Assembly: GCA_030433275.1 (NCBI GenBank)
Contig: JAUILK010000020.1
Location: forward strand, 1-57,653
From: Gammaproteobacteria bacterium
Lineage (GTDB): Bacteria > Pseudomonadota > Gammaproteobacteria > Nitrococcales > Nitrococcaceae
DNA length: 57,653 nt
Reading direction: 5' to 3'
The notes under the pieces were generated by a model, which was given only the letters and a program-made list of their open reading frames with translations, did not search any database and was not told the origin of the DNA. The position numbers and the translations under genes were made by a program. Shown in pieces: positions 848-12,477 of the stretch (positions within the stretch are counted from its first letter, which is position 1; each line of letters starts with the position of its first letter).

Positions 848-1939
848 ATGGGTTTTAATTGCGGAATTGTTGGTCTGCCCAATGTCGGCAAATCGACTTT
901 GTTCAACGCGCTTACCCGCAATCAGGTAGCTGCGGAGAACTATCCTTTTTGTACGATCGACCCGCATGTGGGCATCGTTCCAGTGCCGGATCCGCGTCTG
1001 GCGCAACTCGCCGAGATCGTGCAGCCGCAGAAAATCGTACCGACGGTGATGGAGTTCGTCGATATCGCGGGTTTGGTTGCAGGCGCTTCTAAAGGGGAAG
1101 GGCTCGGCAATCGATTTCTTGCTCATATCCGCGAGACTGATGCCGTCGCTCATGTCGTGCGCTGCTTCGAGGATGTGGATGTACACCATGTTTGTGGTCG
1201 GGTCGATCCGGTCGCGGACATCGAAACCCTGCAGACGGAGCTGATTCTGGCGGATTTGGAAAGCGTAGCCAAGGCGCTTGAGCGCTACCAACGTCGGGCC
1301 AAAGCGAATGATAAGCAGGCCATTGCCTATTGTGACTGGCTCGGGAAAATCGCTGAAGCTTTAAACGAGGGCACGCCCGTACGCGCTCAGAATTTGGGTA
1401 CAGCGATGCAGCCAATGCTTCAGGAACTGCATCTGTTGACCGCCAAGCCGATGTTGTACATCGCCAATGTCACAGAAGACGGCTTCGTCGATAACCCTCG
1501 TCTCGATGCCGTGCGCGAGATTGCCGCACAGGAGGACGCCGCCGTCACGCCGGTTTGTGCCGCCATAGAGGCGGAGCTTGCCCAACTCGATGACCGGGAG
1601 CAGGCGGGGTTCTTGGCCGAATACGGTCTTGAGGAGCCCGGACTCGATCGCGTCATCCGATCGGGTTACCGTCTCTTGGGATTGCAAACCTTCTTTACGG
1701 CCGGCCCCAAGGAAGTCCATGCCTGGACCGTCAAAGCGGGAGCGAGCGCGCCGCAGGCGGCCGGTCGTATCCATACCGACTTCGAGCGCGGCTTTATCCG
1801 TGCTGAGGTCGTCAACTTCGACGATTTCATCCGTTGCCGGGGCGAGCAAGGTGCTAAAGAGACGGGTCGGATGCGCTTGGAAGGCAAGGATTATCTAGTC
1901 GAGGAAGGCGATGTCATTCACTTCCGCTTCAATGTTTGA
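848..1939 (+). CDS. ychF: Redox-regulated ATPase YchF (Obg-like)
   Basis: Universally conserved P-loop protein of the Obg family that binds ATP rather than GTP and associates with ribosomes. In E. coli it negatively affects the oxidative stress response. The 363-residue length is standard. The G1 loop is GLPNVGKST near residue 9, the DIAG G3 motif follows, and the G4 position reads NVTE instead of NKxD, the feature that gives ATP specificity in YchF. The last 80 or so residues form the TGS domain. The gene starts 18 bases after pth stops, so the pair is very likely an operon, as in many gammaproteobacteria. Confidence 0.97.
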
Positions 1940-2014
1940 TACGCCAATATCATCGCTTTGGTGAAGACAGCGCGATCATCGCTATACCTGCCAACGCGGT
2001 TGCGTAAGTCAGCC

Positions 2015-2043
2015 TTGACAGTACAGCGAGTCACCAGGAAAAT
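2015..2043 (+). promoter_or_regulatory. Candidate sigma-70 promoter of tRNA-Met
   Basis: A perfect -35 hexamer TTGACA (2015-2020) is followed after 17 bases by GAAAAT (2038-2043) as a -10-like element, then a C-run and the mature tRNA start at 2069. Position and spacing suit a tRNA promoter, but the -10 is weak. Confidence 0.5.
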
Positions 2044-2068
2044 CCCCTGTTTACCTGCCGGAATGCAT

Positions 2069-2145
2069 GGCTACGTAGCTCAGCTGGTTAGAGCACCACA
2101 CTCATAATGTGGGAGTCGGTGGTTCGAATCCACCCGTAGCCACCA
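2069..2145 (+). tRNA. tRNA-Met (elongator), anticodon CAT
   Basis: A complete 77-base cloverleaf. The acceptor stem GGCTACG (2069-2075) pairs with CGTAGCC (2135-2141), followed by discriminator A and an encoded CCA (2143-2145). The anticodon stem CCACA/TGTGG encloses a loop with CAT at 2103-2105, and the T arm contains GGTTCGAATCC. The sequence is close to the E. coli elongator tRNA-Met and lacks initiator features such as a mismatched first pair and three G-C pairs in the anticodon stem. CAT could also be tRNA-Ile decoding AUA, but body similarity favours methionine. The gene sits at the edge of a decayed integrated element, for which it probably served as attachment site. Confidence 0.95.
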
Positions 2146-2167
2146 AATCACCGTTTCATGAAGTGCT

Positions 2168-2204
2168 AACCCGTCCCAAACTCTTGTATAGGCGGGGTTT
2201 TTAT
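2168..2204 (+). terminator. Probable Rho-independent terminator after tRNA-Met
   Basis: An AACCC-type left arm (from 2168) can pair with the GGGGTT right arm (about 2194-2199), with a bulge near the base, followed by TTTTTAT. It lies about 25 bases after the tRNA CCA end, where a tRNA terminator is expected. Confidence 0.5.
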
Positions 2205-2229
2205 GTCTGCTGCCTCCTATACAGTTCCA

Positions 2230-2303
2230 TACCGTTTCATAAAATACCGCTATTCTTGACGGTACATATGGCGGTATGTGGCACTTCGGCATAGGAGATA
2301 CCG
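2230..2303. repeat. Cluster of TACCG/CGGTA pentamers upstream of integrase remnant
   Basis: The pentamer TACCG occurs at 2230, 2245 and 2299, and its reverse complement CGGTA at 2260 and 2272. The first three steps are 15 bases apart, and ATACCGC/GCGGTAT forms an inverted repeat around 2244-2277. Upstream regions of P4-type integrase genes often carry such repeated short motifs, so these may be old integrase arm sites or an autoregulatory operator. That role is inference; the repeats themselves are visible. Confidence 0.45.
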
Positions 2304-2305
2304 TC

Positions 2306-2465
2306 ATGCCGCTATCGGCGATCCAAGTAAGCAAGGCGACGCCCGGCGATAAACCCTACAAGCTCACTGATGGCAGTGGGTTATACCTGCTGGTGAAGCC
2401 GGACGGTGGGCGTTACTGGAGATTGGATTACCGGGTTTTTGGTAAGCGCAAGACATTGGCGCTAA
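2306..2465 (+). pseudogene. P4-type tyrosine integrase, N-terminal remnant (DUF4102)
   Basis: An ATG at 2306, preceded by AGGAGA (2293-2298), opens about 53 codons that match the N-terminal arm-binding DUF4102 domain of P4-type integrases. Diagnostic stretches are PGDKPYKLTDGSGLYLLV and GKRKTLAL. The similarity stops at about 2462, where the reading frame passes into IS3-family sequence, so the catalytic domain is completely absent. The gene begins 160 bases downstream of the tRNA-Met 3' end, in the orientation usual for elements that integrate into tRNA genes. It is the surviving end of a genomic island or prophage that has otherwise been lost. Confidence 0.8.
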
Positions 2466-2790
2466 AGGGTGTGGCGGGTGTGCTGCGCAACGAAGCTCAA
2501 CTGGCGGCGTCGTTTCAAACGCCGTTACCGGCCGGAGGCGCCAGCGGCGCTTTTGCAACCCATTCGCTCCAATCAGGCCTGGTTTTCGGACTTCATGAGC
2601 GATGCACTCTACGACGGGTGAGTCTTTCGCACCTGCAACGTGATCAATGACTACAATCGCGAGATGCTGCGCATCGAGGTCGATATCTCCTTGACCGGCG
2701 CGCGGATCACCCGGGTACTTGAGCAACTGGTGCAGGGGCGTGGGCGTCCGGAGCGTTTGCGTGTCGATCGTGGCCCGGAATTCAATCGCG
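2466..2790 (+). pseudogene. IS3-family transposase OrfB fragment (decayed)
   Basis: In the frame that includes 2466, the translation resembles the middle of an IS3-family OrfB (DDE integrase core, rve domain). It starts with RVWRVCCATKLNWRRR, continues with QAWFSDFMSDALYDG, then VFRTCNVINDYNRE, IEVDISL, and ends in the RVDRGPEFN motif that holds the second catalytic aspartate and flanking glycine. An in-frame TGA at 2619-2621 replaces what is normally an Arg codon in DGRVFR. Both ends are missing: it fuses to the integrase remnant at about 2465, and similarity ends near 2790. No terminal inverted repeats are visible. The product cannot be active. Confidence 0.78.
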
Positions 2791-2998
2791 CGCTAGCCGG
2801 TAGCTCAGCTCATAGCAAACCCAGTCGTGAATCGGTGACTGGCCGCAGTCTGTTTGACCCCTCCTGCTAAAGAACACGTCCTGTCGGTCGTTATCCCATT
2901 CGAGAGCATGGAGCGCAGCAATGGAATTCCCTCTTGAGTGGTATGTCTGGTTGGTTTTGTTCCCACGGGTGGGGACTGGATGAGCAGCTAACGTGGAC

Positions 2999-3313
2999 AT
3001 GGAGATGCCAATCCCAGCTAAAACCGGAAGCCAGGATAAGGGGTCCGTGGTCATTACCTTGTTGCCGGAACAGACCATCCGCGGTGTCAAACTTTTACAT
3101 GCCGAACTCTGCGTTGCCTTGAAAGGCGCGACCCGTGTCCGGCTCGCCGCGGCTGAGGTCACGCACGTCGATACAGCGACACTGCAATTGCTCTGTGCGT
3201 TCATATTGGAGAGCCGGCAACGCGGGGTCGAGGTGGAGTGGGACACCCCCTCAGAGGCATTGTCGTCAGCGGCTCGATTATTGGGTGTCAGCGAGGTGCT
3301 GGTGCTGGAGTAA
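2999..3313 (+). CDS. STAS-domain protein of the chemotaxis cluster
   Basis: A 104-residue single-domain protein of the STAS fold (anti-sigma-factor-antagonist/MlaB type). The signature is in the middle: VTHVDTATLQLLCAFI, which aligns with the VDTAGLQLL helix start of small STAS proteins found at the head of chemotaxis operons. Where anti-sigma antagonists have a phosphorylatable Ser, this protein has Thr-Ala-Thr. The first plausible start is ATG 2999; GTG 2993 and ATG 3005 are in frame and close, and no strong ribosome site distinguishes them. It precedes the CheY-like gene by 41 bases, so it is probably the first gene of the operon. Its partner is not evident; a link to CheA or to pole organisation is inference. 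Confidence 0.75.
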   Translation: MEMPIPAKTGSQDKGSVVITLLPEQTIRGVKLLHAELCVALKGATRVRLAAAEVTHVDTATLQLLCAFILESRQRGVEVEWDTPSEALSSAARLLGVSEVLVLE

Positions 3314-3354
3314 CTCTTTTGTCGCTCGCTGATTGCGAGTCGTAAGTGGAGGCT

Positions 3355-3723
3355 ATGGCAAACATTCTAGCGGTGGACGATTCGGCTTCGATCCGCGCCA
3401 TGGTGGCCATGGCGCTGCGTGGGGCTGGGCACGAAGTTATGATGGCGTGCGATGGGGTGACAGCGCTCGAACTGGCTAAGCAGAGCTGGGATCTGGTGTT
3501 GGCGGACGTGAACATGCCGAACATGGACGGTATTTCATTGATCCGGGAGCTGCGCGCCAGGCCGGAGGGTCGTTTCATACCAATACTAATGTTGACCACT
3601 GAGACATCTATAGAGCGTAAACGAGCGGGGCGCGAGGCGGGTGCTACGGGTTGGATTATCAAGCCTTTCGACCCTGACCAACTCATAACAATTGTTGAGC
3701 GGGTAATCGGACTGGAGCTATGA
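3355..3723 (+). CDS. cheY: CheY-like chemotaxis response regulator
   Basis: A single receiver domain of 122 residues with no output domain. The acidic pair is D8-D9, the phosphoacceptor D51 lies in ADVNMPNMDG, the conserved Thr is in LTTETS (T81 or T82), and the switch lysine K103 is in IIKPF. ATG 3355 is chosen because GTGGAGG lies just upstream. It gives the usual MANILAVDDS start, whereas the GTG at 3346 would add three residues and lose the ribosome site. It overlaps the CheA start by four bases (ATGA), implying translational coupling. In this arrangement CheA phosphorylates it and it acts on the flagellar motor or as a phosphate sink; which one is not visible. Confidence 0.93.
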   Translation: MANILAVDDSASIRAMVAMALRGAGHEVMMACDGVTALELAKQSWDLVLADVNMPNMDGISLIRELRARPEGRFIPILMLTTETSIERKRAGREAGATGWIIKPFDPDQLITIVERVIGLEL

Positions 3724-5762
3724 GTCTCGATTTGACCCAATTCCACGTAACTTTCTTTGAGGAGAGTTTCGAAGCGCTCGATGGTATGGAGTTTGCCTTG
3801 CTCAGACTTAGCGCTGGCGAGCCCGATGCGGAACTTATCCACACGATTTTCCGGGCGGCTCATTGCATCAAGGGAGGGGCGGCAATTTTCGGGTTTGCCG
3901 AGATCGCTTCGTTTACACATACGTTGGAAACCTACCTGGATGCCCTTCGTGGTGGTTATCTAATAGTAAATCAATTGGGTATCGACTTGCTGCTGAAGTC
4001 GGTCGATTTGCTGCGGTCCACGCTGACTAGCGTGCGGCAGGGCAATACCGTCGATCAGCATCCGGTGGCTGCGTTGCAATCCGATCTGGAGCGGTTGTCG
4101 CAGGTGGTGGATCCGCCGGATAGTGGCGTCGGCGAGCCGGTTCACTATGGGGCGGGTGCGGTCGTTGCGAGACCCGGCGGCGATGTCGCTCGCCACGCCA
4201 AGCTTTTGCCGGGCGGCTGGCACATCGATTTCAAACCGCACCGCACGTTGTTGCAGCAAGGTAATGAGCCGCTCTGCATGTTCGGTGAGCTGCAGCGACT
4301 CGGTGCACTGCAGCCGCGTGTGGATATCGGTAATCTGCCCCTCTTAAACCTTATGAACCCCGAGCTTTGCTATCTAGCCTGGGACTTGCGCGTGCATGGT
4401 GAGGTGGTTCGAGCCGATGTAGAGGAGATCTTTGAGTGGGTGGCGGATGACTGTGAGGTGCTTATTCGGGCGCTTGCCTCAGTCGCTGAGTTACCGTTGC
4501 CAAATCAACCGGTTCCAGCGCTGTGTCCCGAGCGCGCTATTGACCTCACTGCGCCCCAGCAGACAAATATTACGCAGATTTGGTACGGCGAGAGCGGTTC
4601 GATTCGGGTCAGCATTGAGAAAATCGATGAGCTGATCAATCGGGTCGGCGAATTAGTGATAACTCAGTCGATGCTCCACGAGTTAGGTGGCAGCGGCACT
4701 CCCGAAGTGAGCCGGCTCCAAATCGGTCTAGAGCGGCTCGAACGCAATACCCGTGAGCTGCAAGAGAGCGTTATGCGGATGCGCATGTTGCCGGTCAACA
4801 CCGTGTTCAGCCGCCTTCCCAGAGTGGTGCGCGATCTTGGTCGCAAAATGGACAAACAGGTGGAACTCACGCTCTCAGGGGGGCAGACCGAACTCGATAA
4901 GAACGTGCTGGAGAAGATCGGAGATCCGTTGGTGCATTTGCTGAGGAATGCTATTGACCATGGTATCGAAAAGCCTTCGATGCGGCGCCAGCTCGGCAAG
5001 CTGGAAACTGGGCACCTTAGGCTCGCTGCCGCTTATAAGGGCGGACGGATCAATATTCGTTTGAGTGACGATGGAGCAGGACTCGACCGTGAGAAGATCC
5101 TCGCCCGGGCGCGATCCGATGGCCTTGTCCAGAATGAAGAGATCAGTGATGCAGCTATTTATGATCTCATTTTCCATCCTGGCTTGTCCACCGCCGAGCA
5201 GACGACGGAGCTGTCCGGGCGCGGCGTGGGCATGGATGTGGTACGTAAGAATATCCGGGCGCTTGGTGGCTCGGTCGAAGTCAGCAGTGAACGGGGCCGG
5301 GGTACTACGTTCAGTATTGTGTTGCCGTTGACGCTGGCGATCATGGATGGCCAGTCGGTCGTCCTTGGTGATGAGAATTACATCATTCCGCTCGTCTCAA
5401 TCGTTGAGTCGTTACAGCCAAGGGCCGGTTTAGTCGGCCATGGGAGCAACTGCGGCGAGCTTCTTTTATTTCGTGACGAATATGTGCCGATTCTTCGTCT
5501 CGACGAACTCTTCGGTACCCGCATTCAGAGCCGATCCCCAAGCGACGGTTTGATTGTCATTGTCGAGAGTGATGAGCGCCGGATCGGCATTGTCGTCGAT
5601 GACTTGCTTGGTCAACAGCAGATCGTCCTCAAATCGCTAGAGGAGAATTACCGAAAAGTGAAGGGTATTTCGGGCGCCACCATCCTGGGAGGTGGTTCGG
5701 TCGCCTTGATTCTGGATGTCCCGGAGCTGATGCGTATTGCGCAGGAACGCGGGGCCGCCTGA
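3720..5762 (+). CDS. cheA: Chemotaxis histidine kinase CheA
   Basis: Autophosphorylates in response to receptors and passes phosphate to CheY and CheB. The 680-residue protein has an N-terminal HPt domain with the phosphorylated histidine H48 in RAAHCIKGG (a Cys replaces the more usual Ser). A P2-like linker region follows to about residue 290. The dimerisation helix pair starts near 300 (IDELINRVGELVITQ). The HATPase domain has its N box LLRNAIDHGIE near 407 and the G box GRGVGMDVV near 500, and a CheW-like domain runs from about 540 to the end. It is translationally coupled to the CheY-like gene by ATGA. All catalytic motifs are intact. Confidence 0.97.
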   Translation: MSLDLTQFHVTFFEESFEALDGMEFALLRLSAGEPDAELIHTIFRAAHCIKGGAAIFGFAEIASFTHTLETYLDALRGGYLIVNQLGIDLLLKSVDLLRSTLTSVRQGNTVDQHPVAALQSDLERLSQVVDPPDSGVGEPVHYGAGAVVARPGGDVARHAKLLPGGWHIDFKPHRTLLQQGNEPLCMFGELQRLGALQPRVDIGNLPLLNLMNPELCYLAWDLRVHGEVVRADVEEIFEWVADDCEVLIRALASVAELPLPNQPVPALCPERAIDLTAPQQTNITQIWYGESGSIRVSIEKIDELINRVGELVITQSMLHELGGSGTPEVSRLQIGLERLERNTRELQESVMRMRMLPVNTVFSRLPRVVRDLGRKMDKQVELTLSGGQTELDKNVLEKIGDPLVHLLRNAIDHGIEKPSMRRQLGKLETGHLRLAAAYKGGRINIRLSDDGAGLDREKILARARSDGLVQNEEISDAAIYDLIFHPGLSTAEQTTELSGRGVGMDVVRKNIRALGGSVEVSSERGRGTTFSIVLPLTLAIMDGQSVVLGDENYIIPLVSIVESLQPRAGLVGHGSNCGELLLFRDEYVPILRLDELFGTRIQSRSPSDGLIVIVESDERRIGIVVDDLLGQQQIVLKSLEENYRKVKGISGATILGGGSVALILDVPELMRIAQERGAA

Positions 5763-5802
5763 TCGGCCGCGTATGGTTTTTGGTGGATATTGGGGAAATA
5801 CC

Positions 5803-6342
5803 ATGCAGACGCACACTGAGGAGCGAACGACCACAGCGGAACCAGCCACTGCAACGCCAGGGAAGAGCTCGCAGTACCTCACGTTCGTACTGGCCGACGA
5901 ACATTATGCCGTGGAGATCCTTCGCGTGCGAGAGATTCGGGGCTGGTCACCGGTGACTCGACTTCCGCAATCTCCTGCTTTCCTGCTGGGGGTTTTGAAT
6001 CTCAGAGGCTCCATCGTGCCGATCATTGACTTGAGGGTGCGTCTGAGCCTGGAGTCGGTGGCGTATACCTCCGTCACTGTCACCATTGTGTTGGCGGTGG
6101 AATCATCCCGTGGCAAGCGCAATTTCGGCATCGTCGTCGACGGTGTATCGGATGTGTTGGAAGTGTCGCCTTCAGATATCCAGGTACCACCGGAAATAGG
6201 CAAAGGCGTGAATCCGGAATTCATCACTGGGCTCGCTGCCGTTGCGGACAAGATGTTGATGTTGCTCGATATTGATCAGTTGTTGAATGAAAAGGAGCTT
6301 TCTGCGGTTGTGGAACGTTCTGAAGCTGCTGTGGGGTCTTGA
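5803..6342 (+). CDS. cheW: Chemotaxis coupling protein CheW
   Basis: Adaptor that docks CheA onto receptors at the cell pole. The 179 residues are one CheW-like domain: YLTFVLADEHYAVEI starts the first beta sheet, followed by the conserved VTRLPQSPAFLLGVLNLRG and PIIDLR segments. The region GIVVDGVSDVLEV and a C-terminal DIDQLLN complete the fold. I place the start at ATG 5803, behind a TGGGGAA stretch; an in-frame upstream codon at 5737 would lie inside cheA and adds a region without similarity. It begins 40 bases after cheA and is presumably in the same transcript. About 280 bases follow before the receptor gene, holding a FliA-type promoter. Confidence 0.95.
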   Translation: MQTHTEERTTTAEPATATPGKSSQYLTFVLADEHYAVEILRVREIRGWSPVTRLPQSPAFLLGVLNLRGSIVPIIDLRVRLSLESVAYTSVTVTIVLAVESSRGKRNFGIVVDGVSDVLEVSPSDIQVPPEIGKGVNPEFITGLAAVADKMLMLLDIDQLLNEKELSAVVERSEAAVGS

Positions 6343-6403
6343 CCGCGGCGAGTTGATCGATGGAAGGGCGGCGCGCGCATCGCGCCAAAATCGATCTAAA
6401 TCG

Positions 6404-6430
6404 TCAAGTTTGATTAAAGTATTCCGATAA
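6404..6430 (+). promoter_or_regulatory. FliA (sigma-28) promoter for the receptor gene
   Basis: TCAAGTTT (6404-6411), exactly 11 bases, then TCCGATAA (6423-6430). The FliA consensus is TAAAGTTT, 11 bases, GCCGATAA; only two of sixteen positions differ. It points at the receptor gene 196 bases downstream, in the only sizeable gap of the chemotaxis cluster. It predicts that the receptor, and perhaps cheR-cheD-cheB, are expressed with late flagellar genes. Confidence 0.75.
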
Positions 6431-6625
6431 CAAATTAACGAATAGAGGGCGAATCTGGGGTGCCGGTAGTCCGAGTCATTGGAACAACTTTATCTGCGGG
6501 GTCGGATGCAGCTGAAGTTGAGAAGTGGTTTGAGTGGTTATCTGAGCCTGTGGTCTCGAAATCAGATCAAGCTACGACGGCAGGGCCGCCACAGATGGAG
6601 TTGAGCGTTCCAAAAGGAGTTGGCG

Positions 6626-8455
6626 ATGAATTTTTTCAACAAAAGCCTTTTTTGGAAGTTTGCCTTGCCGACCAGCGCGCTTTTCGTGGTCTGCATTATT
6701 GCAATGGCGTTTTTCGTGCCGAATCTACTTAAACAAAGCGCTGTTGCCGGTGCGGTCGCAAACGCCGAGGAAACTGTCACTCAGTTCAAAACGTTGCGTC
6801 AATACTACACCGAGAATGTGGTGGAAAAACTAGCTGACCGGAGTGACGTCGAATTTTCGGAAAATCACAAGCAAAATCAATCGCTTCCGCTTCCTGCGAC
6901 CGTCATCCTCGACATGGGGGATTTACTGAAGAACGAGGGAACGACGTTGCAAGTTTACAGTCCTTATCCCTTCCCTAATCGAAAGGGTCGGACGCTGGAT
7001 CAGTTCAGCCGAGAAGCATGGGCCTATTTAAAGAATAATCCCGATGGTGTCTACACCAAACTGGTGGAAGAAAACGGTAAGAAGGTCGTTCGTGTGGCCA
7101 TGCCGGATCGAATGACGAGCCAGAGCTGCGTCAACTGTCACAACATGCGTGCGGACTCGGCCAAGCGGGACTGGCAACTCGGCGATTTGGGAGGGGTTTT
7201 AGAGGTTGGCTCCAACATCGACGGTGTGCTTGCCGCTGGCATACGCACGAGCCTATGGGTTGTGCTCGGGGTGATCGGGCTTGCGCTTGCAGTCATGGGA
7301 TTTGCCTATTACATCTTCAAAAAGCGCATTACTGCGCCGCTGTCGAATGCCAGCGCAGTCGCCAAGAGCATTAGCGAAGGCGATTTGGCGGTCAACATCG
7401 ATCGGGTGTCGGAGGACGAGGTTGGCCAACTCCTGGTGTCACTCAAAATGATGCAGGCCAAGCTGGTCGATATCCTTGGCGACATGCAGGGCGGTCCTGA
7501 CGCCATCGCTCATGGTTCTCACGAGATCTCTTGCGGTATAGACGATCTTTCCCAACGCACCCAGGAGCAGGCTGCGGCACTTGAGGAGACCGCCTCCAGC
7601 ATGGAGCAGATGACGGCTACGGTTAAACAGAACTCGGATAACGCAAGCCGCGCCAATCAGCTTGCGATGAGCGCGCGCGAACAGGCCGAACGCGGTGGCT
7701 CCGTGGTCACGGAAGCAATCGCCGCTATGCAGGATATCAACCATTCGAGCCAGAAGATCTCCGAAATCATAGGTGTGATCGATGAAATCGCTTTCCAGAC
7801 TAACCTATTGGCATTGAATGCTGCGGTAGAGGCGGCCCGGGCCGGGGACCAAGGCCGTGGCTTCGCGGTAGTGGCGAGCGAAGTTCGCAGCCTCGCCCAG
7901 CGCAGCGCCGGTGCCGCTAAGGAGATCAAGGAGCTGATTCAGGACAGCAGCGGCAAGGTGGAAGTCGGTAGCACTCTGGTGGATCGCTCCGGAGCGACGC
8001 TCAAGGAGATCATGGAAGGGATCAAGAAGGTGTCCGATATCGTGGCGGAAATCTCGGCAGCCAGCCAGGAACAATCGGCGGGTATTGAGCAGGTCAACAA
8101 TGCTGTCATGCAAATGGACGAAGTCACTCAGCAGAATGCGGCGCTGGTAGAACAGACTGCAGCGGCAAGTCACTCCATGTCGGAGCAGGCCATCCGACTC
8201 CGGGACCGGTTGGGATATTTCCAGTTCGCGAAGCAGGCGGCAGGCACATCAGGCGAACTCGCCAACGGTGGGGAGCAGGTGGCAAGCGCGAAGCGTGCGT
8301 ATGCTTCCAGTAATGCGTCGGCTGGCCATTTGCGCAGTCAAGCTGGGCGCAATGCAAGCGACCACCGCCCGCTGCAGGGAGGCGGCCGGCATAACGGTAA
8401 AGCTTCGGTGGCGCACTATAACGGCGATGATCAGGGCATTCTACAGGAGTTTTGA
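6626..8455 (+). CDS. Methyl-accepting chemotaxis protein with periplasmic heme-c (DUF3365-like) sensor
   Basis: A 609-residue transmembrane receptor. TM1 is about residues 10-31 and TM2 about 209-231. Between them is a periplasmic domain resembling DUF3365/Tll0287, carrying a c-type heme attachment motif CVNCH at 168-172 inside [19 protein letters not shown] domain follows (about 232-285), then a long coiled-coil signalling domain whose hairpin tip is the conserved [19 protein letters not shown] stretch. The last 70 residues are Ser/Gly/Ala rich with no terminal CheR-binding pentapeptide. ATG 6626 is preferred because AAGGAG lies six bases upstream; a TTG at 6620 is also in frame. The ligand is inferred to be redox state or a gas such as oxygen or nitric oxide, from knowledge of heme sensor domains. 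Confidence 0.9.
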
Positions 8456-8570
8456 CCAGGGTTATGTTTGATGACGGGCGCCGGATGAGCCGTGTACCCC
8501 GATCGGGTGTCTTGACAGCGATATATCCGGCACTGTGCCCAAACGGTTTGCCTGGGTGTGAGAGGGCGTA

Positions 8571-9422
8571 ATGCTAGCAGGCGTACCAAACTACTGTGCG
8601 GATGAGATCAGTGAAGCCGATTTTCGGTATATACGCGCGCTTATCGCCGAACACTCCGGTATTCAGATTACCGAGCAGAAGCGATCGATGGTGCTCGGGC
8701 GGTTGGCAAAACGTGTTCGTACCTTGGGGCTGCCGAGCATTGCCGCATATTGTGAGCGGGTGCGCGCTTGCCCCGAGCGTGAATTAACCGAGTTGATCAG
8801 CGCGTTGACCACCAACGTCACTGCGTTTTTTCGTGAGGCGCATCATTTCGTATTTCTGGCCGAACGTATTATTCCAGAACTTCTGGTACGCAATGCCGCA
8901 ACGCGCCGTATCCGCATCTGGTCGGCAGGCTGTTCAACTGGCGAAGAGCCATACTCGATTGCGATGGCGGTGCTTGAGGCTTTGCCGACAGGGCAGTTTT
9001 GGGATTTCAAACTATTGGCAACCGATTTGGATCAGCAGGTTGTCGAGTTTGGTCGGGAAGCCGTCTATCGCAGCGATCGGCTTGAGACGATGGTGCCGGG
9101 GCGGCGCCGGCGTTGGTTTCAACGCGTCGGCGGAAAGTCGGTGGATCGGATTCAGGTTGTGAATGAACTACGCGAGCGCGTGCGTTTCGTACCCCTCAAT
9201 TTGATGGGGCCATGGGCCATGAAAGGCCCGTTCGATGTGATTTTCTGCCGCAACGTCATTATCTATTTTAATAAGGAGCGCAAGGAGCGGCTGATCGATC
9301 GGTTTGCTGATTTGACAGCACTCGGCGGATATCTGTTTATCGGTCATTCCGAGTCCCTGTACGGCTTGACCGATCGTTTTCGGCCGATCGGCAAAACAAT
9401 CTACCGGAAGGGTGAGTCGTGA
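8571..9422 (+). CDS. cheR: Chemotaxis protein methyltransferase CheR
   Basis: Transfers methyl groups from S-adenosylmethionine to glutamates of chemoreceptors, the adding half of adaptation. The 283 residues have the short all-helical N-terminal domain (DFRYIRALIAEHSGI), the LTTNVTAFFREAHHF linker that carries conserved Asn and Arg, the SAM-binding loop WSAGCSTGEEPYS, and the later DVIFCRNVIIYF motif. All are standard for CheR. It begins 115 bases after the receptor gene and its stop overlaps the cheD start (GTGA), so cheR-cheD-cheB are one translationally coupled unit. The receptor lacks a terminal pentapeptide, so CheR would bind its substrate helices directly. Confidence 0.96.
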   Translation: MLAGVPNYCADEISEADFRYIRALIAEHSGIQITEQKRSMVLGRLAKRVRTLGLPSIAAYCERVRACPERELTELISALTTNVTAFFREAHHFVFLAERIIPELLVRNAATRRIRIWSAGCSTGEEPYSIAMAVLEALPTGQFWDFKLLATDLDQQVVEFGREAVYRSDRLETMVPGRRRRWFQRVGGKSVDRIQVVNELRERVRFVPLNLMGPWAMKGPFDVIFCRNVIIYFNKERKERLIDRFADLTALGGYLFIGHSESLYGLTDRFRPIGKTIYRKGES

Positions 9423-10087
9423 AGTGGGAACCGTCACCGCACAGAGGCTCAGGAGACCGGATCGAGCGGGCGAGCCGATTGCCTGGCTTCGAGCATATAG
9501 CCCGCTACCGCGACAAGGGGAGAGTGATCGCGAAAATCTTGCCGGGTGAGTACTACGTGACCAGTGAGCAGGAAGTTCTGATTACACTGCTTGGTTCGTG
9601 TGTGGCGGCTTGCATACGCGATGTGAAGCTTGGCATTGGCGGCATGAACCACTTTTTGTTGCCCGCCGCAGGTTGCAGCAATGATCGGTGGAGCGGTCCC
9701 CTTGGGAAGGCGACCCGCTACGGAAGCGCCGCGATGGAGCGACTGATCAACGACATCCTGAAACACGGCGGCCGCCGAGACCGTTTGGAGGTGAAAATAT
9801 TCGGTGGGAGCAAGGTGCTCGAGCGGATGCGCGACATCGGTGTGGGCAATATTCGTTTCGTGCGGGAATACCTGGCACGGGAGGGTTTGCAAGCTGTGGC
9901 CGAAGATGTGGGGGGAGCATCGCCGCGTCAGGTACAGTATTTCCCGCATACCGGTAAGGTATTGGTCAGACGGCTCAGGGCCTTGCGGGAGACGGATGTG
10001 GCTGGGCGTGAGCAGGCCTATCTGCGCGCTCTGCAGGCGCGGCCCGTGGTCGGTGAAATCGAGCTGTTCGGAGGTGGCGCTTCATGA
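9419..10087 (+). CDS. cheD: Chemoreceptor glutamine deamidase CheD
   Basis: Deamidates receptor glutamines to glutamates, and in some bacteria modulates CheC. The catalytic cysteine is C61 in [13 protein letters not shown] and the catalytic histidine H78 in GGMNHFLLP; their spacing of 17 equals that of the Thermotoga enzyme (C27, H44). The 222-residue protein is longer than the minimal family because of about 30 extra N-terminal residues and a C-terminal tail. The GTG start at 9419 overlaps the cheR stop, and the end overlaps cheB by four bases. No cheC or cheZ gene is visible in this window, so CheD probably acts with CheR and CheB only. Confidence 0.94.
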
Positions 10088-11208
10088 AACCGATTCGTGT
10101 GCTGATCGTTGACGATTCAGCCCTGGTCCGACAAATACTAACTCAGATTATTAATGCCCAGCCGGACATGAAGATCGTCGGTACGGCATCGGATCCTTAC
10201 CTGGCGCGGCAGCGGATCAAGCAACTCGCCCCGGATGTGCTGACCTTGGATGTGGAAATGCCGAAGATGGACGGTATCACGTTCCTCGAGAATCTGATGC
10301 GGCTGCGTCCGATGCCGGTGGTCATGGTGTCCTCGTTGACCGAGCGTGGGGCCGATGTGACGCTGCGCGCGCTCGAGCTGGGAGCGGTTGATTTCGTTGC
10401 CAAACCTCGGGTGGATATTGCCGGAAGTCTGCGCGATTACAGCGACGAGATTGTCGGTAAGGTGCGCGCGGCCGCGCGGGCGCGAGTCGGTAGGCGCGAC
10501 TGTCGCAGGCCGCCGGCGGCGATCGCACCGAAGTACACGGCTGATGCGGTGCTCGTCGCGCGCCTGGCCCCGCGGCGATTCCGCACGACCGATCGGATGA
10601 TCGCCATCGGGGCATCAACCGGTGGTACGGAGGCAATCAAAGTCGTCTTGGCGTCCATGCCACCCGATGCACCGGCAATCGTCATTACTCAGCATATCCC
10701 GGCAGCGTTCAGCGCACCTTTTGCGGCTCGGATGAACTTGGCATCGGCCATGTCTGTCTGCCAGGCGGCGGATGGTCAGCAGATCCTCTCAGGCCACGCC
10801 TATATCGCTCCAGGCGACCAGCACTTATTAGTCGAGCAGGATGGGGCGCGTAATGTGTGCCGGCTGAGCGATCGCCCACCGGTAAACCGACATCGTCCGA
10901 GTGTAGATGTCCTGTTCCGCTCGGTTGCGCAGAACGTAGGCCCCAATGCCGTGGGTATACTTCTCACGGGTATGGGCGAAGACGGTGCTCGTGGCTTGAA
11001 GGAAATGCAAGAGGCTGGCGCGCCGACTCTAGCGCAAGACGAGCGTAGCAGCGTGGTATGGGGGATGCCCGGCGCCGCAGTCCGGCTGGGTGCCGCCGAT
11101 GCCTTGGTGGCCCTGGATGATATAGCCCAGAGGGTGTTGCAGCTTTGTGCATCAAGCCAACCGAGATCGGCTCGAAGCACAGCGGATATCGCGCGCTCAC
11201 CTGGATAG
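10084..11208 (+). CDS. cheB: Chemotaxis methylesterase/deamidase CheB
   Basis: Phosphorylation-activated esterase that removes receptor methyl groups. An N-terminal receiver domain carries the phosphoacceptor D56 in [11 protein letters not shown] linker rich in Arg and Ala follows (about 130-165), then the alpha/beta esterase domain. The catalytic triad is S178 (IGASTGG), H204 (TQHIP) and D300 (GMGEDG), with the same spacings as E. coli S164, H190 and D286. ATG 10084 overlaps the cheD stop by four bases. This is the last gene of the chemotaxis cluster; about 110 bases without a gene separate it from an unrelated dehydrogenase gene. Confidence 0.97.
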
Positions 11209-11316
11209 TCCCATCGGAGACGGCTTGGTTCGGCCACTCTAAATGCTCCTACCCAGTGGGCCGCACGGGCCCTTGTCTGTTATGGTGGCACTAAAAGGCG
11301 ACGTCGATAAGATACC

Positions 11317-12477
11317 ATGCGCAGAGGATCGCGTTGGAAGGTGGCTGTGCTACCGGGTGATGGCATCGGCCCTGAAGTAATGGCAGCGGCTGTCGAAGCA
11401 TTGCAAGCATTGAGCTCGCAAGGCGAGCCGCAGTTGGATCTGACCGAGTTTCTTTGGCCTTCGCATGCCTGGCATCGGACCCATGGCGAGATGTGGCCGG
11501 CCAGTTGGCATCAAACCCTGGCAGAATTTGACGCTATTTTGCTCGGGGCGCTGGGCGATCCGGGGCCGGCTGATGATGTACGACGCTATCGTTTGTCGGA
11601 TGCCGTGGCATTGGCTCCGTTGCTGGAAATACGCAAGGGATTCGATCAATGGGCATGCGAACGCCCGGCGTTGCATCTGCAGGGCGCGCCGCAATACTTG
11701 GCTGATCCCAAGGCGGATGAGATCGATGTGCTCGTGGTTCGCGAGAACAGCGAGGGCGAGTACGTCGGACAAGGCGGTCGGTTGGCCCCAGGCACGTCGC
11801 GTGAGGTGGCCACCCAGATCGAGGTCTTTACCCATGGTGGTGCGGCGCGCATCTTCCGGCATGCTTTTGAGCGGGCCCGTCAAAGGGCCGCGGAGCGTGC
11901 CGCCGGACGGCGTCGCGATCGGGAATTTCCGCTGCCGACCGGGCGCGTGGTTCGCAGCGAGGTTTGCTTGATCACCAAGCGCAATGCGCTGCGCTACTGG
12001 GGCGAGATGTACTCGGAAATATTCGAGGCGGTGGCGTGCGAGTACCCGGACGTCGCGACGCACCATGAATTGGTTGATGCGGCCTGTATGAAATTCGTAA
12101 CGGCGCCCTGGCGCTTTGATGTCGTTGTGGCGAGCAATCTGCACGGCGATATCCTTACTGATTTAGCCGCCGTGTTGGCCGGAGGTATGGGGGTGGCCCC
12201 CTCTTGTAATCTTAATCCCGCCGACCGTCGCCAGCCGCCCATGTTCGAGCCCACCCACGGTAGTGCACCCGATATTGCGGGTCGTAACCGGGCTGGTCCC
12301 CAAGCGATGTTGCTCACGGCCGCGATGATGCTTGATTGGATGGGTGAAGAAGATGCATCCATGGCCGAGCAAGGCCGTAGACTGCGTGAGGCGGTGGCTA
12401 TGGATTTACGTGAATATGGTCTGCGTCCGCGATCAACGACCGAGGTGGGGGCGGCGGTAATCAGGCGGTTCAAATAA
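11317..12477 (+). CDS. Isocitrate/isopropylmalate-family dehydrogenase (tartrate/D-malate dehydrogenase-like)
   Basis: A 386-residue NAD-dependent oxidative decarboxylase of the beta-decarboxylating family. The start VAVLPGDGIGPEV is the family N-terminus. Closer similarity is to the tartrate dehydrogenase/D-malate dehydrogenase branch (TtuC, DmlA): KGFDQWACERP, VVRENSEGEYVGQGG, VVASNLHGDILTDLAA, MGVAPSCNLNP and MFEPTHGSAPDIAG. The leuB branch is less likely because the RxxxxRxxLR substrate motif is not seen. A likely basic catalytic residue is the Lys in LITKRN. It starts 108 bases after cheB without a strong ribosome site and is followed 81 bases later by an aminotransferase, so it probably belongs to the catabolic block and not to chemotaxis. 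Substrate assignment is tentative. Confidence 0.75.
   Translation: MRRGSRWKVAVLPGDGIGPEVMAAAVEALQALSSQGEPQLDLTEFLWPSHAWHRTHGEMWPASWHQTLAEFDAILLGALGDPGPADDVRRYRLSDAVALAPLLEIRKGFDQWACERPALHLQGAPQYLADPKADEIDVLVVRENSEGEYVGQGGRLAPGTSREVATQIEVFTHGGAARIFRHAFERARQRAAERAAGRRRDREFPLPTGRVVRSEVCLITKRNALRYWGEMYSEIFEAVACEYPDVATHHELVDAACMKFVTAPWRFDVVVASNLHGDILTDLAAVLAGGMGVAPSCNLNPADRRQPPMFEPTHGSAPDIAGRNRAGPQAMLLTAAMMLDWMGEEDASMAEQGRRLREAVAMDLREYGLRPRSTTEVGAAVIRRFK

Follow-up and report, generated by a model that had tools for sequence, protein, structure and literature searches.

The stretch of DNA analysed here (hereafter the window; 57,653 nucleotides) is a whole contig of a 3.41 Mb genome assembly (G000; 104 contigs, completeness 100) and carries a complete che cluster, the eight genes of which are all encoded on the forward strand in the order STAS-cheY-cheA-cheW-mcp-cheR-cheD-cheB (Table 1). 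All eight genes are open and match their families. A scan of positions 1900-11400 returned 4 sigma-70 sites, against 4.6 in shuffled sequence, and 3 terminators, against 8.8. A tRNA-Met gene and a likely integrase remnant (2069-2650) directly precede the cluster and possibly mark an old island border. Elsewhere on the same contig (50576-56170), genes for a COX1-type oxidase subunit and COX15/CtaA constitute an aerobic oxidase locus.

Table 1. Features of the che cluster and of its chemoreceptor (positions in the window).
Feature	Position	Strand	Basis
tRNA-Met, upstream of the cluster	2069..2145	+	ARAGORN
Short ORF whose sole domain is an integrase arm-type DNA-binding domain; likely integrase remnant	2276..2650	+	PF13356
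STAS-domain protein, anti-sigma-factor-antagonist type	2993..3313	+	PF13466, 43.6 bits
cheY-like response regulator	3346..3723	+	PF00072, 87.8 bits
cheA	3720..5762	+	Hpt, H-kinase_dim, HATPase_c and CheW domains
cheW	5737..6342	+	PF01584
Chemoreceptor gene (609 aa): TM1, sCache_heme, TM2, HAMP, MCP signalling domain	6626..8455	+	ORF, Pfam, hydropathy
Tll0287-like / sCache_heme domain, presumably periplasmic (residues 37-194)	6734..7207	+	Pfam PF11845, 54.9 bits (cut-off 24.1)
PLPAT, containing Pro90 (residues 88-92)	6887..6901	+	Alignment with Tll0287 (5b82)
CVNCH, predicted heme-c attachment motif (residues 168-172)	7127..7141	+	Sequence; relatives
HAMP domain (residues 233-281)	7322..7468	+	Pfam
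MCP signalling domain core, MCPsignal (residues 345-501)	7658..8128	+	Pfam, 198.6 bits
cheR	8571..9422	+	PF01739 and PF03705
cheD	9419..10087	+	PF03975; NF010013 over cut-off
cheB	10084..11208	+	PF01339 and PF00072; NF001965 over cut-off

The receptor reading frame runs from an ATG at 6626, directly preceded by a plausible ribosome-binding site (AAAAGGAG), to a stop at 8455; an alternative TTG start is possible two codons upstream, at 6620. Two membrane segments are apparent from hydropathy (approximately residues 7-40 and 200-232), with the motif CVNCH between them, as the original prediction had it, and the sensor domain enclosed by these two helices is presumably extracytoplasmic. Three Pfam families match the receptor at E <= 0.01, none of them PAS. 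Residues 207-545 align in phmmer with residues 190-528 of E. coli receptor I, which we take to be Tsr, over 339 residues in both proteins. Since the E. coli receptors belong to the 36H class (PMC9855816, accessible text), this equal-length alignment puts the window receptor in the 36H length class.

A phmmer search of the PDB with the full-length receptor retrieved 14 sequences, every match beginning at residue 207 or later, and the seven matching NCBIfam families (Tsr, Aer2 of Vibrio and others) all score below their cut-offs and match mainly after the sensor, indicating that no named receptor family fits the whole protein. The receptor ends in ILQEF and possesses no CheR-binding pentapeptide with an aromatic residue at position 2, in contrast to McpB with its C-terminal pentapeptide GWEEF. 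Among the 59 intact MCPs in the best-scoring 80 of 480 related loci (see below), only L121 has the pattern [HFYW]xx[HFYW] within its last eight residues.

The sensor domain and its heme motif

An AlphaFold2 model of the sensor, computed from 43 sequences (mean pLDDT 89), puts CVNCH on a short helix (residues 166-174) flanked by strands 152-162 and 188-197. This arrangement agrees with the heme position in the sCache_heme family, which the accessible part of PMC12889525 describes as a Cache domain in which an insert ahead of the last strand bears the heme. Compared with known structures by VIA-align, the model matched Tll0287 (5b82) best (Z 12.3, rmsd 3.8 over 147 residues), on a par with an integrative model of WalK (Z 11.9) and ahead of the Cache domain of TlpB (Z 9.3); the heme-binding MCP domain of GSU0935 (3b42) was found at Z 6.9 over 74 residues. 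Foldseek ranked 3b42 fourth (E 0.013) and 5b82 fifth (E 0.015), after three integrative models, so the structural ranking of 5b82, as judged from the predicted model, is not sharp. A mixed sequence profile (A3) retrieved 5b82 alone from the PDB (E 5.8e-17). Profile A1 retrieved only two designed TIM barrels (E about 0.001), which we judged to be chance matches. Pfam and structure comparison thus bear out the DUF3365/Tll0287-like domain that had been predicted ahead of the HAMP and MCP domains, and the reading of this domain as a heme-c-type sensor in an MCP is supported by sequence and structure comparison alike.

A CxxCH motif arose in 71 of 200,000 shuffles of the receptor protein. For comparison, related loci were collected by a contig scan with profile A1 (21 receptors), which used the peptides [LV]YSx[YF]PFP[NI]R and [TS]P[KR]x[DGN]W[KQ][LI][GN]D, both leaving out the heme motif, and were confirmed by tblastn; the same scan from one protein alone found no loci. 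From the resulting 480 loci the 80 best-scoring were kept, and all 80 carry CxxCH within the receptor-domain reading frame, which led us to reject a chance origin of the motif. Homologues lacking CxxCH as a rule had been named beforehand as the observation that would speak against a heme sensor; the reverse was found. The 80 loci comprise 59 intact MCPs, judged by the signalling-tip motif including its NAT and NAS variants, one MCP cut by a contig end, 9 long hybrid kinases (from Oxalobacteraceae and one Burkholderiales MAG, called by a length >1100 aa or a receiver motif) and 11 other or cut frames, among them the broken L060 and several with MCP-like tails. In the nine loci of the kinase type (L082, L088, L092, L093, L096, L101, L105, L132 and L135), mostly from Duganella, Massilia and relatives within the Oxalobacteraceae, the heme domain is part of ~1200-aa proteins that end in a receiver domain and that we read as hybrid histidine kinases.

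Other samples give the same picture of motif conservation. CxxCH is present in 35/35 loci that BLAST matched to the first 235 residues of the receptor, the window copy included; these were drawn from 50 loci of the searches among relatives and across the class, leaving out 15 without a match. The motif is likewise reported in 99% and 99.4% of two sCache_heme datasets in the accessible text of PMC12889525. As for the domain itself, a class-wide survey matched the N-terminal 230 residues of the receptor in 61 of 369 genomes (own genome included), and PF11845 was detected in 15/59 genomes of the relatives set, again counting the window's own, versus 0/14 control genomes.

Within the window genome, PF11845 finds one protein besides the receptor, a TM-sCache-TM-HAMP protein encoded on contig C104 (L010:4668-7159), which is devoid of an output domain and adjoins a serine/threonine kinase gene. 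Its architecture is that of the NO-binding P. azotoformans protein described in PMC12889525 (accessible part). The pair of heme protein and kinase recurs in G001 and G004 and twice in G054, a genome of another family in which the kinase is 29% identical (loci L001, L010, L011, L012, L013 and L025), and this recurrence makes the kinase a candidate for the output partner that the heme protein lacks.

The only cysteines in the periplasmic part of the receptor are residues 168 and 171. In the A3 alignment the Cys of AVC in Tll0287 (5b82), which we take to be its axial Cys, is aligned with the second Pro of PLPAT, Pro90; the ligation of Tll0287 is given as Cys/His in the accessible text of PMC12889525. 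Pro90 is invariant in 21/21 and 43/43 sequences of two alignments (window included), and the column holds Cys in L016-L018, three homologues without a signalling domain. A proline at the axial-Cys position, together with the absence of any further periplasmic Cys, suggests that the sixth heme site is open or occupied by water or some weak ligand, and we consider an open site quite probable. On the strength of the alignment, the receptor matches the NO-binding signalling protein of PMC12889525 in having no axial Cys, as far as the accessible text defines that feature. We are highly confident in predicting that heme c is covalently attached to the receptor. CcmF, a part of cytochrome c maturation system I, has matches in 5/5 genomes of the genus, the window's included (in two pieces in G003).

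Receptor number, related clusters and output

The nearest named match to the receptor among the best 80 of the 480 loci is from the MAG Nitrococcus sp. 48_S62 (74% identity), whose stretch recurs without a single difference in contig C118 of G003, a genome of the window's own genus; by this named relative the window genome is assigned to Nitrococcus, a nitrite-oxidising genus. Contig C19 encodes an alpha subunit of the narG family (1476.7 bits) together with beta and gamma subunits, preceded by a cytochrome c gene, an arrangement that, in our view, resembles nitrite oxidoreductase operons. Judging from these genes, the organism is likely to oxidise nitrite.

The original prediction correctly stated that the heme receptor is the only one in the cluster. 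Genome-wide, PF00015 adds a single MCP gene, on contig C90, which adjoins a ChpA-type kinase gene and which we read as PilJ; the heme receptor is therefore the only flagellar-type receptor in the assembly. It seems to be the only candidate swimming receptor there, although another may have been lost to a gap in the assembly. Having few MCPs is in itself nothing out of the ordinary, as MCP numbers vary widely across the family: 18, 13, 10 and 1 in the other genera (G006 to G009) and 0 in the 14 remaining genomes. A second che set lies on contig C11 (L008, 10958-16179), where flhA-flhF-fleN-fliA are followed by a flagellar cheY-cheZ-cheA-parA-cheW-cheW row with no receptor beside it (names read from translations; CheA and the second CheW confirmed by Pfam).

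The window cluster resembles clusters of other bacteria in composition. We assume its gene order to be the same as in P. aeruginosa cluster II. According to the accessible text of PMC6739360, that cluster holds cheB2, cheD, cheR2, cheW2, cheA2, cheY, McpB (Aer2) and McpA; Shewanella che1 is described in PMC9855816, also accessible in part, as holding cheA, cheY, cheW, cheR, cheD, cheB and two MCPs, including the heme receptor Aer2. Clusters of this Aer2/McpB type (P. aeruginosa II, Shewanella che1/che2) thus share with the window cheY, cheA, cheW, a receptor, cheR, cheD and cheB, as well as the heme in the receptor; the two Shewanella clusters additionally encode anti-sigma-factor antagonists (PMC9855816). 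They differ in the sensor, since the heme of Aer2 is a PAS heme b, whereas the window receptor would bind heme c in a periplasmic Cache domain. Among the best 80 of the 480 loci, the uncultured gammaproteobacterium L120 presents the row MCP-like, cheY, STAS, cheA, cheW, MCP, cheW, heme MCP, cheR, cheD, cheB (STAS and cheY named by eye), and in an uncultured Oleiphilus (L078) the heme MCP stands in a comparable che row on a contig that begins within cheW. In both, the heme MCP stands beside further MCPs. For 71 of these 80 loci, the 3 to 16.7 kb covered contained no match to the window Che proteins (E <= 1e-8).

This resemblance raises the question of what the cluster controls. A heme-gas receptor with a non-swimming output, i.e. 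an alternative chemosensory pathway acting for instance in a stress response through the STAS protein, is a real possibility, though one that we lean against. The STAS gene heads the cluster and has a counterpart in the anti-sigma-factor antagonist that Shewanella che2 also encodes, and che1, besides its Aer2, holds CrsR/CrsA acting on RpoS (PMC9855816, accessible text). Moreover, a separate flagellar che set is available next to fliA. Conversely, no CrsR-like partner was found by eye beside the STAS gene in the list of reading frames and their translations, and a non-swimming output would leave the separate flagellar CheA without any receptor in the assembly. Navigation by means of this receptor, as originally predicted, is one possibility among others: as far as the accessible portions of the two papers go, such pathways in Vibrio, Pseudomonas and Shewanella serve non-chemotaxis functions, either still unknown or in stress response (PMC9855816), and whether P. 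aeruginosa cluster II acts in aerotaxis is described as controversial (PMC6739360). Swimming as the output of the window receptor is, in our judgement, about evenly balanced.

The ligand of the receptor

The accessible text of PMC12889525 gives the closest guide to the signal. A signalling-type sCache_heme membrane protein of P. azotoformans, with two TM segments and a HAMP domain, bound NO tightly and released it slowly, whereas the stand-alone P. putida protein looks redox-like, and stand-alone members of the redox type use an axial Cys. The signalling type corresponds to sCache_heme Cluster 2, with which the window receptor shares PF11845, CxxCH on the insert helix, the Cache fold, two TM segments, HAMP, a listed MCP fusion and the absence of an axial Cys (PMC12889525). 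The tested member nevertheless ends after HAMP and is not an MCP, so that the extension of the NO-sensor claim to MCP fusions is that of the authors of PMC12889525; the window protein, in contrast, has a full MCP domain and its own che cluster. Because the receptor lacks an axial Cys, like the NO-binding member, a heme-c gas sensor with NO as the first candidate is the best reading, and we give NO roughly an even chance of being the main ligand.

Heme-c chemoreceptors have also been considered as redox sensors. DcrA of Desulfovibrio vulgaris is reportedly an MCP with a c-type heme and is said to sense oxygen or redox potential. The Geobacter proteins GSU0582 and GSU0935 (3b47, as named in the accessible text of PMC12889525, and 3b42) are likewise MCPs with a periplasmic heme c and CxxCH, albeit of low sequence similarity to the window domain. 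Their heme domains bind CO and NO, have His/water or His/Met ligation and switch between high and low spin with Met60, for which a redox switch was proposed in the accessible part of PMC8396549. In the window receptor the oxidation state of the heme iron would then follow the ambient potential, with the sixth ligand (Met or water) swapping and gas binding being incidental. The presence of 3b42 among the structural matches fits such a sensor, and Met97, Met159, Met163 and Met174 are candidate ligands in the window domain. However, the Geobacter domains were out of reach of our profile searches, so that no alignment was obtained from which a Met equivalent to Met60 could be established, and the Cys used by stand-alone redox-type members is absent here. 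We therefore regard redox sensing as rather unlikely, although the gas binding and redox-dependent spin switching of the Geobacter domains keep it in play.

The signal had originally been predicted to be redox state or oxygen, and of these two only the former is retained as possible. An oxygen receptor for aerotaxis would have a precedent in Aer2/McpB, a heme receptor in a similarly composed cluster; its native ligand is oxygen, and in E. coli it gave repellent responses to oxygen as well as to NO and CO (PMC6739360, accessible text). Yet the Aer2 heme is of the PAS b type and McpB is soluble (PMC6739360 and PMC9855816, accessible parts), and none of the sCache_heme proteins whose tests appear in the accessible text of PMC12889525 formed a stable O2 complex, all being autoxidised; we consider oxygen very doubtful as the ligand.

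Taken as a whole, we favour, with some reserve, a transmembrane sCache_heme chemoreceptor with heme c, an open sixth site and NO as the first candidate ligand, driving the adjacent CheA as the sole flagellar-type receptor of the cell; redox sensing and an output other than motility are serious competitors of this reading. In this scheme the Ccm system would link a single heme c to Cys168 and Cys171 on the periplasmic side, with His172, to judge from the motif, as the proximal iron ligand. With Pro90 in place of the axial Cys, the sixth site would be open or taken up by water or a weak ligand, and a small reactive molecule, most likely nitric oxide, would bind there. Binding would alter the heme pocket and move TM2, after which HAMP and the 36H-type MCP tip would alter the activity of the neighbouring CheA through CheW, while CheR, CheB and CheD of the same cluster would adapt the receptor. 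The output would be the cluster's own CheY and probably flagellar switching, because the genome yielded no further receptor of the flagellar type.

Gene decay in the genus and significance of the receptor

The receptor is patchily distributed in the genus, which indicates that it is dispensable: it was not found in the genus genomes G001 and G002, and in G003 (a MAG) it is split between frames. G004 has window-like DNA matching positions 2788-3860 (86%) and 11045-11258 (87.5%) with a 43-base piece between, the two cluster ends thus lying side by side, which suggests that a window-type cluster was once present and then deleted. With the window CheA as query, an orthologue was detected among the genus relatives only in G003 (70%); the CheA-like matches of G001 and G002 fall in a long ChpA-type frame (with one further weak kinase match in G002), and G004 has a match in a frame of ChpA type plus a fragment of 39 residues. 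A PF00015 match in G001 (29.4 bits, below cut-off) was rejected as an MCP, the same protein giving coiled-coil matches and a MotA_ExbB match below cut-off.

The flagellar che set is affected as well. In G001 (L173) fliA is whole and flagellin is kept, cheY falls into two frames, and all that is left of the row that follows is the final 59 residues of the second cheW. cheY is also split between frames in G004 (L174, L176) and followed only by a 50-residue piece of parA, whereas G003 (L175) keeps cheA (its start off the contig), parA and both cheW genes. Flagellin-family matches were found in G000, G001, G002 and G003 and none in G004. The losses in G001, G003 and G004 suggest that an ancestral cluster of the genus is being lost and argue against the receptor being essential. 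Consistent as these losses are with the window copy being a relic that decay has so far left unhit, we consider this very unlikely, given that all eight genes of the window cluster are open and match their families and that CxxCH, Pro90 and the remaining invariant columns are retained in the periplasmic domains of both the window and the G003 copy, which share 74% identity.

The receptor type as such is not new, since the sCache_heme family and its MCP fusions have already been described (PMC12889525, a preprint of February 2026, accessible in part), and that description makes oxygen less likely. In our literature search, which left subscription papers mostly outside, sCache_heme and a link between DUF3365 and chemoreceptors or chemotaxis were found only in that preprint, no paper on Nitrococcus chemoreceptors was found by title or abstract start, and no heme, gas or swimming measurements were found for the protein or the MCP sub-group. 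What seems to be new here is an sCache_heme MCP as the apparently only flagellar-type receptor of a cell, in a complete che cluster.

An NO-binding domain that has only recently been named is thereby linked with a full che cluster from a nitrite-oxidising genus, and the window organism would offer a natural system with a single receptor, in which the signal of an sCache_heme MCP could be followed with no other receptor interfering. Should NO or nitrite be the ligand, the receptor would illustrate how a nitrifier finds its place in gradients of nitrogen oxides. More speculatively, and in our estimation improbably, the swimming receptors of a flagellated nitrite oxidiser may have shrunk to one heme-c receptor that reads NO or nitrite in the periplasm through its open iron site, with a heme-c Cache sensor in the place of the heme-b Aer2 of similarly composed clusters. 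Were the one-receptor reading true, the cell would steer by a by-product or substrate of its own energy metabolism.
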